64,000 nt of DNA, taken from contig JAQWQD010000030.1 of assembly GCA_029244985.1 (NCBI GenBank), forward strand, positions 62,001-126,000. The letters run 5' to 3'. This document shows positions 32,944 through 45,568 of this stretch, piece after piece (positions within the stretch are counted from its first letter, which is position 1; every line of letters starts with the position of its first letter). The DNA is from Gammaproteobacteria bacterium (lineage in GTDB: Bacteria; Pseudomonadota; Gammaproteobacteria; Pseudomonadales; Pseudohongiellaceae). The notes beneath the pieces were generated by a model. It worked only from the letters and a program-made list of their open reading frames with translations. It searched no databases and was not told the DNA's origin. The translations under genes and the position numbers were made by a program.

Positions 32944-33819
32944 TCATCCGTTTAATTGAGCAGCGACTTCAGCAGCGAAATCTTCTTCTTCCTTCTCTAT
33001 TCCTTCGCCAACTTCATAACGTACAAATTGCACAATATCGGCACCTGCCTCTTTCAGAAGTGCTCCTACTTTAATATCTGGGTCTTTAACGAAATCTTGC
33101 TCTAGTAAGCTGACTTCAGCAACAAATTTTCGCAAACGGCCACTAATCATTTTTTCAACAATTTCCTCAGGCTTACCACTTTCCCTTGCCTGAGAAGAAT
33201 AAATCTCAGATTCTTTTGCTAGTATGTCTTCGGGTACATCTTCCGCTCTAACTACCATAGGGTTTACAGCTGCCACGTGCATTGAAATATCCCTCGCAAG
33301 AGCTTCATCTCCACCTTTCAAGGAAATTAATACAGCAATCCTATTATTACTATGCACATAAGTCTCGACTATGCCTTGGTTTGCATCGTCAAAGCTCAAT
33401 CTTTCTACGCGGCGGAGATTTATATTTTCACCAATCTTTTGCACCAACGCCTGGCGCGTATTTTCAATACCCGCATCTAACAATGCATTTACATCCGCTT
33501 CACTATTTGAATACGCCATCTCTAAACATTGCTTAGCGAAGGAAAGAAAATTCTCGTCTCGTGCCACAAAATCAGTTTCGCTATTGATTTCAACGACTAC
33601 ACCGTAATTACCATCTTCAGCGATCTTCGTCATCACAATACCTTCTGCCGCGACTCGACTCGCTTTCTTCGCTGCCTTTAATCCACTCGCTTTACGTAAA
33701 TCGTCGATGGCTTTCTCCAGATCACCATCAGCTTCAGTTAGCGCCTTCTTACAATCCATCATTCCCAAGCCAGTACGCTCACGTAATTCTTTAACCATGC
33801 TCGCAGTAATTGTTGCCAT
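32944..33819 (-). CDS. tsf: Translation elongation factor Ts
   Basis: EF-Ts recycles EF-Tu from its GDP to its GTP form. The 291-residue protein has the N-terminal UBA-like domain ([19 protein letters not shown]), the first core signature [17 protein letters not shown], and the second core domain ending in [20 protein letters not shown]. It follows rpsB across 150 nt that hold a strong intrinsic terminator, so its level may depend on readthrough from rpsB or on a promoter in that gap. Confidence 0.98.
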
Positions 33820-33878: not shown

Positions 33879-33903
33879 AAAAAGGGGGCTAACGCCCCCT
33901 TTC
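33879..33903 (-). terminator. Intrinsic terminator between rpsB and tsf
   Basis: On the minus strand a GC stem GGGGGC / GCCCCC (positions 84-89 and 94-99 of 33800s, extended by three A-T pairs) with a 4-nt loop is followed by five Ts at 33883-33879. In E. coli a partial terminator also separates rpsB and tsf, so this likely tunes tsf expression relative to rpsB rather than closing the operon. Confidence 0.85.
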
Positions 33904-33969: not shown

Positions 33970-35040
33970 TTAGTCCTTGTTGGCATCAGCCTTTTTCTTA
34001 GCTGGCACTTTCTTCTTAGCTGCTACCTTTTTCTTAGCCGGCGCTTTTTTCTTGGTAACGGCCTTCTTTTTAGCGGGCGCTTTTCTCTTAGCTGGCGCTT
34101 TAACTTCCTTAGTAGGCTCTTCGACGGCTTCAGCAGCAGGATCCTCGACGGCTTCAGCAGCAGGATCCTCGACGGCTTCAGCAGCAGGATCCTCGACGGC
34201 TTCGACAGCAGATTCTTCCACTCCTTTATCTACAGCTTCTTCTAATGGTGCTTCTCCTTCCGCTTTTTCTGGGGAATCAGATGATTCTGCGGCACCTTCC
34301 ACTTCTTCACCAGCTGGAGCACTCTCTTCAATTTCTATGAATTCACTCTCAATAGGACCATTGCGTGCACGCCCTTCAAGACAAGCGTCAGCCACTGACA
34401 TTGCGTAGAGTTGAATCGCACGAATTGCATCGTCATTCCCAGGAATAACAAAATTAACCCCTTCCGGGTTGCTATTCGTATCTACGACTCCAATTACTGG
34501 AATTTTTAAGTTATTGGCTTCGGTGACAGCAATACGTTCATGGTCAACATCAATTACAAATAAGGCATCAGGCAACCCACCCATATCCTTAATGCCACCA
34601 ATACTGCGCTCCAATTTTTCCTTCGCTCGCTTCAGCATTAGCGCTTCTTTCTTAGTTAAGCGATTGAACGTACCGTCTTTTTCCTGAGTTTCGAGCTCTT
34701 TTAACCGTTTTATTGATCCACGAATGGTTTTGTAATTCGTTAACATGCCACCCAACCAACGGTGATTAACGTAAGGCATACCGGCACGTTCAGCTTGTTC
34801 TCTTACAATTTTCGCAGCTGCCCTTTTTGTCCCTACAAAGAGAATTTTTCTCTTTTTTTCAGCCAGATCAGCCACCTGATCTAAGGCTGAATTCAGCGCT
34901 GGAACAGTGTGCTCAAGGTTAATTATATGAATTTTGTTACGAGCGCCAAAGATGTATGGCTCCATTTTTGGGTTCCAATAGCGACACTGATGCCCAAAAT
35001 GTACTCCGGCACGGAGCATTTCTTTCATGCTTACAGTCAT
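33970..35040 (-). CDS. rpsB: 30S ribosomal protein S2 with long acidic/repeat/histone-like C-terminal tail
   Basis: S2 is a surface protein of the small ribosomal subunit needed for S1 binding. I chose the ATG at 35040 because GAAGGA lies just before it and the S2 core begins at [16 protein letters not shown]; a longer frame reaching 35133 lacks family support. The 356-residue product has a complete S2 core to about residue 236 ([55 protein letters not shown]). Beyond it lies an unusual 120-residue tail: acidic to about 281, three VEDPAAEA units at 282-305, then a basic Lys/Ala/Pro end rich in PAKKK. E. coli S2 is 241 residues. The tail resembles the H1-like protein at 43.9-45.6 kb. Confidence 0.97.
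34121..34192 (-). repeat. Three perfect 24-nt tandem repeats in the S2 tail
   Basis: The unit beginning TCGACGGCTTCAGCAGCAGG on the plus strand and ending ATCC occurs three times in a row without a mismatch (34121-34144, 34145-34168, 34169-34192), followed by a degenerate fourth copy. Each unit codes one VEDPAAEA octapeptide. Perfect identity suggests recent slipped-strand expansion, so copy number may vary between strains. Confidence 0.95.
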
Positions 35041-35400
35041 GTTATATCCTTCGGTTTGGGTTAGGCCTCCATACACCCCATGGATCAACTCAAGCTGCCG
35101 GCTAGGCTTGCAGCGAGAGCACCCAGAACACATGTGACGGTGTATGTGCGACGTTAATAGTTAAAGTAAACTCTTTTGAGATTAATATAGAGTCAACCTC
35201 AGCTCAGAGAGCGCCGCTTTATACCATAATCCGCCTTAATCTTAAAGCTCTCTTCTGCGAAGAAAAAATGCTTCCCATACCCAGAATTATTGACATACAG
35301 CCTGATTTTGGAAGACTAATCACTCTGTATTCTCGTGCTCTACTGATTTAAAATAGCTAGCATCAACACAAGATCATAATTAATTTCAGCAGATGGAAGA
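35041..35400. promoter_or_regulatory. Divergent rpsB / map promoter region with rpsB leader
   Basis: This 360-nt gap separates divergent rpsB and map and must hold promoters for both, though I cannot assign clear -35/-10 boxes. The 90 nt nearest rpsB can fold into hairpins on the minus strand, for example GCTGC and GCAGC enclosing AAGCCTAGCCG. Gammaproteobacterial rpsB leaders are known to mediate feedback by S2, so an autoregulatory leader is plausible but not shown here. Confidence 0.35.
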
Positions 35401-43942: not shown

Positions 43943-45568
43943 TTAACGCTTCCTACTTGGAGCCTTTTTCCTAGCTGGTGCTTTCTTTTTAGTTGCTTTA
44001 CGCTTTGCTGGCTTGCGTTTGACTGCCTTCTTTTTGGCAGCTTTTTTGCGAGCCGGAGCCTTGCGCTTTGCAACCTTTTTCTTAGCTACTTTTTTCTTAG
44101 CCTTCTTTTTGGCCGCTTTTTTCTTAGCCGGCTTCCGCTTTACAGCCTTTTTCTTAGCTGCTTTGCGTTTTGCTGGCTTGCGCTTTGCAGCCTTTTTCTT
44201 AGCAGCTTTTTTCTTTGCAGGCTTTCTTTTAGCCACTTTCTTCTTAGCTTTTTTCTTAGCAGCTTTCTTTTTAGCCGGCTTACGCTTGGCAACTTTACGC
44301 TTTGCTGCCTTTTTGGCGGCAGATCTGCGCTTTACCACTTTCTTCTTGGCCTTCTTTTTAGCTGCTTTTTTCTTCGCCGGCTTGCGCTTAACTGCCTTCT
44401 TTTTGGCGGCTTTACGTTTCGCAGGCTTGCGCTTTGCTACTTTCTTCTTAGCTTTCTTTTTAGCAGGCTTACGCTTTACTGCTTTTTTCTTGGCCGCTTT
44501 TTTCTTAGCCGGCTTGCGTTTTGCTGCTTTTTTCTTAGCTGCTTTCTTCTTGGCTACTTTCTTCTTAGCTGGCTTACGCTTCGCTGCTTTTTTCTTAGCT
44601 ACCTTCTTTTTTGCTTTTTTCTTAGCAGCCTTCTTCTTCGCCGGCTTACGCTTAGCAACTTTACGCTTAGCAGCTTTCTTAGCTGCTGAACGGCGCTTTA
44701 CTGCTTTTTTCTTAGCTTTCTTCTTAGCAGCCTTCTTTTTGGCTGGCTTGCGTTTCACTGCTTTTTTCTTAGCCGTTTTCCGCTTAACCGCCTTTTTCTT
44801 GGCTACCTTCTTTTTTGTAGCCGCTTTTTTCTTTACAGCTTTGCGCTTAACAACCTTTTTCTTAGCTGCTTTGCGTTTTACTGCAACCTTTTTCTTAGCC
44901 ACCTTCTTTTTAGCAGGTGCCTTTTTCTTTTTTGCTGCTTTCTTCTTAGCCATAGGTTTCCCCGTTGTTTTCCGAGTTAAAGTTTTCCTTTTTGACGCAT
45001 TTCGAGCCGCGACCTTTGCTTTGGCTGCGGCCTTCTTAGCGACGATCTTCTCCTTTAGAGCTACTTTTTTAGCGGCTATCCTAGCCTTCAAAGCAGCTTT
45101 TCGAGCCCGCTTAGCAGCTTGCGCCGCTTCCGCTTTAGCTCTGTTCCTTTTCCATTTAGCGATGAAAGCGTCTACCGCCCTCTCTAAATCTGCGCTCATT
45201 TTTGCTTTTTCTGCATTTTTTCTAGCTTTAGCCAGGTTCACTGTTTCTATTGCCTTAGCTTTTGCTCTTGCTGTTCGTATCTTTGCGTTTAGTGAAGCTG
45301 CCTCGGCTGCAACTTTTCGGAAGGAATTTTGAGCGGCAACCACTGCCTTCTTATTGGCAGCAGTTTCAAATTTGGTAGCAGCTTTCTTAGTCGCAATCGC
45401 TTTATTCCGAGCAATTCGAACTTTTTTTAATGCAGCCCTAGTTTCGTTTTGCAATCTAACTACTGCAGCATTTGCTCTGTCCAAAGCGGGGCTATTAATT
45501 TTTCCAATACCTTTAGCCGTCGCTTTATTTTTAGCAGAAGCTTTCTTTCTTGTTTTAACTTTAGGCAC
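43943..45568 (-). CDS. Histone H1-like Lys/Ala-repeat DNA-binding protein
   Basis: A 541-residue, extremely basic, low-complexity protein. Residues 1-200 are Ala/Lys-rich and probably helical or coiled coil; residues 206-541 are built from Lys-Lys-Lys-Ala, Lys-Arg-Lys-Pro-Ala and related short units, like eukaryotic H1 tails and Pseudomonas AlgP. A 55-residue block (271-325) recurs at 393-447 with one difference, so large internal duplication has occurred. The start is GTG with a weak upstream CAGGG; an internal ATG at codon 206 could yield just the basic tail. A role in nucleoid compaction or regulation is inferred from composition only. It sits as a single unit between terminators at the adk-tsaB junction. 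Confidence 0.85.
   Translation of the reverse strand: MPKVKTRKKASAKNKATAKGIGKINSPALDRANAAVVRLQNETRAALKKVRIARNKAIATKKAATKFETAANKKAVVAAQNSFRKVAAEAASLNAKIRTARAKAKAIETVNLAKARKNAEKAKMSADLERAVDAFIAKWKRNRAKAEAAQAAKRARKAALKARIAAKKVALKEKIVAKKAAAKAKVAARNASKRKTLTRKTTGKPMAKKKAAKKKKAPAKKKVAKKKVAVKRKAAKKKVVKRKAVKKKAATKKKVAKKKAVKRKTAKKKAVKRKPAKKKAAKKKAKKKAVKRRSAAKKAAKRKVAKRKPAKKKAAKKKAKKKVAKKKAAKRKPAKKKVAKKKAAKKKAAKRKPAKKKAAKKKAVKRKPAKKKAKKKVAKRKPAKRKAAKKKAVKRKPAKKKAAKKKAKKKVVKRRSAAKKAAKRKVAKRKPAKKKAAKKKAKKKVAKRKPAKKKAAKKKAAKRKPAKRKAAKKKAVKRKPAKKKAAKKKAKKKVAKKKVAKRKAPARKKAAKKKAVKRKPAKRKATKKKAPARKKAPSRKR
44228..44758 (-). repeat. Large internal duplication in the H1-like gene
   Basis: The segment 44594-44758 (codons 271-325) and the segment 44228-44392 (codons 393-447) encode blocks that differ at one residue (Ala289 versus Val411), 122 codons apart. 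Both contain the only two RRSAAKK motifs of the protein. Smaller imperfect repeats of 4 to 12 codons fill the rest of the tail, so recombination or slippage could readily change its length. Confidence 0.85.

Follow-up and report, generated by a model that had tools for sequence, protein, structure and literature searches.

The rpsB locus

The window, i.e., the whole stretch of 64,000 nucleotides that was analysed, carries on its minus strand an rpsB gene whose product, ribosomal protein S2, continues well beyond the conserved core. The features considered here are:

33970..35040 (-): rpsB, 30S ribosomal protein S2 with a C-terminal tail, 356 aa, stop codon at 33970-33972
34369..35040 (-): S2 conserved core, residues 1-224 (Pfam PF00318 match, residues 8-223)
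34333..34368 (-): native-type acidic C-terminus of S2, residues 225-236 (from the S2 ends of relatives and alignment)
34102..34332 (-): acidic segment, residues 237-313, 28 D/E and 3 K/R, predicted disordered (composition and pLDDT)
34126..34197 (-): three VEDPAAEA units, residues 282-305, within a 24-bp tandem repeat
33973..34101 (-): Lys/Ala/Pro basic arm, residues 314-356, 20 K/R and 2 D/E, period of about 6 residues (composition and repeats)
35060..35168 (-): t44 RNA (RF00127), upstream of rpsB (Rfam 62.9 bits, gathering cut-off 44)
32944..33819 (-): tsf-like gene, downstream of rpsB (named by eye)
43943..45568 (-): separate histone-H1-like / AlgP-like Lys-rich protein, 541 aa, about 10 kb from rpsB

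The start of rpsB was taken as 35040, a position common to relatives; the longest open frame begins further upstream, at 35133. The S2 core is full length and scores above the curated cut-offs of both Pfam Ribosomal_S2 (PF00318; 323 bits, cut-off 26.1, E 8e-97, residues 8-223) and TIGR01011 rpsB_bact (343 bits, cut-off 76.3, E 4e-103); no other S2 match occurs in the 3.2-Mb genome. The surroundings also are those of an S2 gene, with the t44 leader RNA of rpsB and a tsf-like gene located 3', all on the same strand. The t44 RNA is the site of S2 autoregulation in other gammaproteobacteria and tsf is the usual partner gene of rpsB; the gene at 32944..33819 (-) is presumed to be tsf from its sequence. 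Between the two genes, the inverted repeat GGGGGC-TAAC-GCCCCC (33884-33899), with A and T runs at its flanks as seen by eye, looks like an intercistronic attenuator; it is absent from the list given by a terminator scan. Opposite the tail, a 143-aa open frame (33977-34408, plus strand) seems merely to mirror the repetitive tail codons.

Architecture of the tail

The native C-terminus of the window S2 is SEFIEIE, and the tail continues directly from there, while most S2s of arm-less relatives stop soon after an EFVEV-type motif. As the first-pass annotation had proposed, the tail is exactly 120 residues long (residues 237-356, 33973-34332 on the minus strand), in the same frame as the core, and consists of an acidic stretch (residues 237-313) that includes three VEDPAAEA units (282-305), followed by a Lys/Ala/Pro basic end (314-356) in which 19 of the 43 residues are K, 12 are A and 4 are P. 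The DNA behind the VEDPAAEA units is a 24-bp tandem repeat of 4.1 copies with 94% matches between copies. Unlike the tail, this unit is not found clade-wide: OM182 bacterium MED-G28, the closest relative, with an S2 core 99% identical, carries a different repeat in its place. Given this replacement and the high identity between copies, the tandem repeat is probably of recent origin.

An AlphaFold2 model built from nine sequences gives pLDDT values below 50 across residues 232-356, which is consistent with disorder of the tail and lends it weak support, the model being modest overall (mean pLDDT 54, with residues 1-23 and 26-41 likewise below 50). In a Pfam scan of the window S2 with E up to 1, Ribosomal_S2 was the sole family matched and no histone H1, HC1 or HC2 match was seen; no family model for an S2 with such a tail was found in Pfam and NCBIfam.

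Distribution of the arm

S2 was searched for in 137 genomes of the family, of which 130 matched and seven were without a match; five gave pieces only (two with an internal stop). The S2 loci read numbered 125, of which 121 were complete, with four dropped as truncated by contig ends (L026, L062, L067, and L093); the S2 of genome G041 was added afterwards and enters the genus count only, outside the tree and the rate tests. An arm was scored when a 20-residue window reached a net charge of at least +7 with no folded end domain. In the OM182-clade genus to which the window belongs, the arm is present in 54 of 69 complete S2s, or 55 of 70 with G041, judged by eye. The assignment to the OM182 clade of Gammaproteobacteria, which GTDB places in Pseudohongiellaceae, comes through the record of MED-G28 (L126), whose contig stretch is identical to that of L005, a genome of the genus. 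L034 was counted as carrying an arm despite a run of unknown bases inside it. Wherever the arms of the genus were measured, the most acidic window lies N-terminal to the most basic one (54 of 54). The 15 of 69 genus S2s scoring no arm comprise six with an end domain, six that are acidic only, and three intermediates; five of the six acidic-only proteins belong to one clade, and L028, scored as acidic only, ends very near a contig end. S2 lengths in the genus range from 275 to 510 aa, the upper value counting a run of unknown bases.

Since the acidic part and the arm occur in 55 of the 70 complete genus S2s, the tail is not a product of chance. The comparison across relatives suggested in the first-pass annotation shows an acidic and polycationic tail kept in most close relatives and under purifying selection (see below). 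A reading frame broken in close relatives, named there as a refutation, was not seen among the tails read, a set leaving out the fragmentary S2 matches of the genus drafts G015 and G124, which have a stop in the core region. To call the tail chimeric would imply a one-off fusion, but it is clade-wide.

Beyond the genus, the arm is found in four other genera of the family (22 of 23 S2s: g2, 11/11; g3, 5/6; g4, 1/1; g8, 5/5) and in none of the 29 S2s of three further genera (g5, 0/1; g6, 0/14; g7, 0/14). Six genus S2s being acidic only and all 29 of g5, g6, and g7 being without an arm, the arm is dispensable. Outside the family, it recurs in other gammaproteobacteria, including Wenzhouxiangella, and was scored in 13 of 86 rows. 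Twelve of these arms come from the 67 non-genus loci of a scan of named genomes, among them that of Wenzhouxiangella sp. XN79A, and one (L241) from 19 extra loci that were chosen for long open frames and do not form a fair sample. On a quick tree of 207 rows, built from S2 only and with 84 of its 197 inner branches open, the arm needs 15 changes, at least six of them forced by well-supported branches; this would fit either repeated gain of the arm or an ancient arm with frequent losses. The draft genome G132 has two S2 loci (L067 and L068), one of which is just 70% identical to the window core, and contamination could explain this duplicate.

Selection on the tail

In 12 close pairs from the genus, in which no sequence was used twice and which were picked by core identity rather than from the tree and are hence not strictly independent, dN/dS was 0.028 for the core, 0.215 for the acidic part, and 0.141 for the basic arm. 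Rows containing X were excluded from these rate tests and from the charge tests below. As alignment favours matches in repeats, a neutral control was added: the whole-tail value is 0.192, versus 0.74-0.83 in neutral simulations realigned identically, which simulate whole tails and not the arm alone. The dN/dS of the tail is 5-8 times that of the core. The arm value equals or exceeds that of the acidic segment in three of the 10 pairs having both values (0.213-0.376). Lys occurs in at least one row of 206 arm columns; of these columns, 147 are identical, 36 synonymous, and 23 changed. An earlier test of Lys conservation, made on arms out of register, had shown no difference (61 of 141 Lys columns changed versus 37 of 85 others, p = 1), and was superseded by the aligned close pairs and the neutral control. 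As the sequences show, the acid-then-base order and the positive charge of the arm are held by selection, whereas the exact residues drift.

The tails are nonetheless negative as a whole, with a median net charge of -8 over 49 tails. Balancing of K/R against D/E was considered as a constraint and set aside as weak: the two counts correlate (rho 0.39, 49 tails) and change in the same direction in seven of the nine pairs differing in both, but each tracks tail length more strongly.

The neighbouring H1-like protein

The separate Lys-rich protein encoded about 10 kb from rpsB matches Pfam HC2 below the cut-off (17 bits, cut-off 40, E 0.0065). A DNA pattern for the arm motif [AP]AKKK[AV] was used in the genome scans, as a protein search of the own genome with the arm recovered S2 only and missed this protein. 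In the 3.2-Mb genome, the pattern has 27 matches, of which four fall within S2, 22 within the H1-like protein, and one elsewhere; the reversed pattern has none in the same genome. In at least nine other genus genomes (G011, G012, G024, G027, G029, G043, G054, G125, and G127, all by the DNA pattern), a motif cluster was observed that shares a contig with rpsB, at a distance of about 9-11 kb.

The six genomes with an acidic-only S2 retain 6 to 14 motif matches each elsewhere, so that the arm and the H1-like gene do not simply co-occur. Copying of the tail from the H1-like gene was likewise rejected: the longest exact DNA word that they share is 18 bases, a length matched in 61 of 200 codon shuffles. 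There is hence no support in the sequences for either gene having given rise to the other.

A subclade of S2s with an HTH-like end domain

Eleven genus S2s form one clade in the quick S2 tree (SH-aLRT 99). Six of them (L003, L024, L079, L081, L082, and L091) end in a domain of 85-90 residues, two carry an arm, and three fall below both thresholds; in one of the latter genomes, G021, a contig-end fragment (L292) has an S2-like tail together with the domain. Arm-motif scans of nine of the 11 subclade genomes gave no match in seven and one match each in two, with the qualification that the [AP]AKKK[AV] pattern would not pick up arms of the KPKAAK type seen in this subclade and that its two arm-bearing genomes lie outside the scan.

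The end domain is predicted to be HTH-like in a single-sequence model (pLDDT 71). It occurs in 17 of the 137 family genomes, and a single-sequence search of the order recovered it from 6 of 115 genomes, where the frames are 88-127 residues long. Within the subclade, it also ends a frame of 750-794 residues in five genomes (L282-L286); the one such frame scanned scores over cut-off for both a NERD and a UvrD helicase domain and also matches a NERD+UvrD model of PADLOC. In 10 genomes, the domain closes a small frame of 171-226 residues, of which eight were read (L287-L291 and L295-L297); by eye, this protein seems to have two membrane helices and is apparently membrane-anchored. The proteins carrying the domain suggest that it may work on nucleic acid.

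Searches for relatives of the domain gave little. Pfam returned no family for three S2 copies with E up to 1, NCBIfam had nothing over cut-off for two copies, and the best PHROGs match has an E of 0.019; over 11 domain members, the best Pfam family is HTH_1 (E 0.0022), matched by four of them. The PDB yielded only a designed repeat protein (whole-sequence E 0.00018, no single stretch passing), and the domain was not found in viral contigs and plasmids. MGMT/ATL-type structures make up 19 of the top 20 Foldseek matches, many being the same protein and every E exceeding 1, and an hhalign comparison with an MGMT/ATL alignment scored 17.3 (probability 3%) against a maximum of 15.1 in 40 column shuffles. 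A relationship with MGMT/ATL is suggestive only.

A more general idea would be that the S2 C-terminus serves as a docking port to which different lineages attach H1-like arms (several lineages of gammaproteobacteria), the HTH-like and possibly MGMT/ATL-related domain that also occurs on the NERD/UvrD-type helicase (the one OM182 subclade), or perhaps the C-terminal domain of PRK12311-type S2s (see below), thereby tethering ribosomes to DNA; this is conceivable, if unlikely.

Possible roles of the arm

The first-pass annotation had suggested that the two arms could bind RNA, DNA or other ribosomes and perhaps link translation to the nucleoid, or help packing in a small cell. The conserved tail on which this idea was built is real, and PhaF, AlgP, and a mosquito ribosomal protein provide precedents by analogy for the function. 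Our own tentative reading, to which we give rather less than an even chance given that the target may be DNA or RNA, is that the tail could be a nucleic-acid-binding electrostatic arm on an acidic leash, tethering ribosomes near the chromosome. The disordered leash would carry the Lys-rich arm out from the native S2 C-terminus, beside the mRNA exit, and keep it away from the ribosome's own rRNA and the S2 core. The polycation would bind nucleic acid without sequence specificity, its target most likely being nucleoid DNA and/or nascent transcripts close to RNA polymerase, and the bound arm would keep translating ribosomes near the chromosome, in the way that the tails of PhaF and AlgP may hold granules of PHA and polyphosphate. 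The position of S2 is described in reviews: uS2 touches RNA polymerase both in 30S-RNAP structures and in those of the expressome (PMC6566652); it sits at the back of the 30S and has a link to the Shine-Dalgarno region, and bS1 depends on it for docking and, in E. coli, for binding (PMC10931766).

Several observations favour such a tether: the arm in 55 of 70 genus S2s, the order in 54 of 54, the low dN/dS of the tail, the near-confinement of the motif to S2 and the H1-like protein, and, in the subclade, S2s ending in an HTH-like domain common to a NERD/UvrD-type helicase. Against it, polycations likewise bind RNA, polyphosphate, and acidic proteins, the net negative charge of the tail could mask the arm, and the arm is missing from the acidic-only S2s and from g5, g6, and g7.

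The nucleic acid nearest to S2 is RNA. Without any connection to DNA, the basic end might instead engage nearby RNA at the 30S platform, be it mRNA, the Shine-Dalgarno region or 16S rRNA, and so increase the recruitment of mRNA or assist bS1. The suggestion that uS2 stabilises the Shine-Dalgarno helix, together with its requirement for bS1 docking (PMC10931766), would fit this, as would the t44 RNA match upstream of rpsB. However, a local contact needs less than a leash of more than 70 residues, the closest sequence parallels, PhaF and AlgP, are DNA binders, and bS1 appears full length. We consider an RNA-directed arm rather unlikely. The related candidate that the arm compensates for a short S1 was rejected, S1 matching its model over 516 of 516 positions.

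The tail could also be largely non-adaptive, with slippage expanding low-complexity repeats at an exposed terminus and selection filtering only against harm. The spread of S2 lengths in the genus (275-510 aa), repeat units that are unlike between closest relatives, whole sister genera without an arm, and a tail dN/dS of 5-8 times that of the core are what such a process would leave. A tail value of 0.19, far under the neutral control of 0.74-0.83, argues in the other direction, as do the acid-to-base order in 54 of 54, the recurrence of arms among distant gammaproteobacteria, and the lone arm-motif match in the genome besides S2 and the H1-like protein; we regard this explanation as decidedly unlikely.

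Contact between ribosomes, with the arm bridging to the rRNA of a partner and stabilising 100S dimers or packing, for instance in starvation, is improbable: when E. coli ribosomes pair as 100S dimers, uS3 of one touches uS2 of the other, and other bacteria have uS2 in the dimer interface (PMC6177447), but no feature of the tail points to dimerisation. It is very improbable that the polycation senses or binds polyphosphate and so connects ribosomes with the starvation response. AlgP, with its similar tail, does associate with polyphosphate granules, but tethering by AlgP is its authors' speculation, and in vitro the peptides of its tail bind to DNA (PMC9239181).

Should DNA or nascent RNA be what the S2 arm binds, one of the core proteins of the ribosome would act as a translation-chromosome tether in a group of mostly uncultured marine bacteria, and arm-bearing and arm-less species would provide natural comparison sets.

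Comparison with known systems

Other extended forms of bacterial S2 are already represented by family models. PRK12311 (NF008966, 334 positions) describes an S2 with a long C-terminal extension, as in the window, but the window S2 scores 319.3 bits against a cut-off of 526, and its match stops at residue 254. Among the S2s fetched, L249 and L252 pass this cut-off. For L249, the C-terminal segment gives a further match, to the end of the extended L21 model NF008916 (E 6e-12, below cut-off), which would look like a domain common to two ribosomal proteins, S2 and L21. The S2 sunset-domain variant NF051451 has, by its model name, an added C-terminal module like the window S2, which, however, reaches only 264.4 bits against a cut-off of 710.

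Closer in composition are the tails of PhaF and AlgP in Pseudomonas. According to the available parts of the respective papers, the Lys/Ala/Pro tail of PhaF binds DNA and the protein acts in granule localisation (PMC3574117), while peptides from the tail of AlgP bind to DNA in vitro and granule spacing needs the tail (PMC9239181); the DNA binding of these tails is non-specific. Like them, the window S2 has Lys/Ala/Pro repeats, predicted to be disordered on a weak model, joined to another functional domain. In contrast, the PhaF and AlgP tails sit on a phasin or helical domain and not on a ribosomal protein, their repeat unit is KPAA versus xPAKKK in the window S2, and the excerpts of these sources describe no acidic leash of the window S2 kind.

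On ribosomes themselves, the nearest precedents come from insects. The C-terminus of mosquito RPS6 bears an H1-like tail of about 100-170 residues, in which lysine, alanine, and glutamate abound and which evolves faster than the core and is retained on ribosomal subunits, its H1 resemblance being ascribed to convergence, and the N-termini of Drosophila L22 and L23a have histone-H1-like extensions (PMC548281; also PMC11764897). The tail of the window S2 similarly is H1-like and evolves faster than its core. It differs in being bacterial, in being located on S2, and in its ordered acidic leash, a feature that the available part of PMC548281 does not describe for the insect tails. A literature search, with most subscription papers outside its reach, found no report of a histone-like tail on a bacterial ribosomal protein. 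While H1-like tails on insect ribosomal proteins and extended bacterial S2s were already known, what appears to be new is an H1-like arm placed after an acidic leash on a bacterial S2, which would make it a bacterial parallel of the histone-like tails on insect ribosomal proteins.
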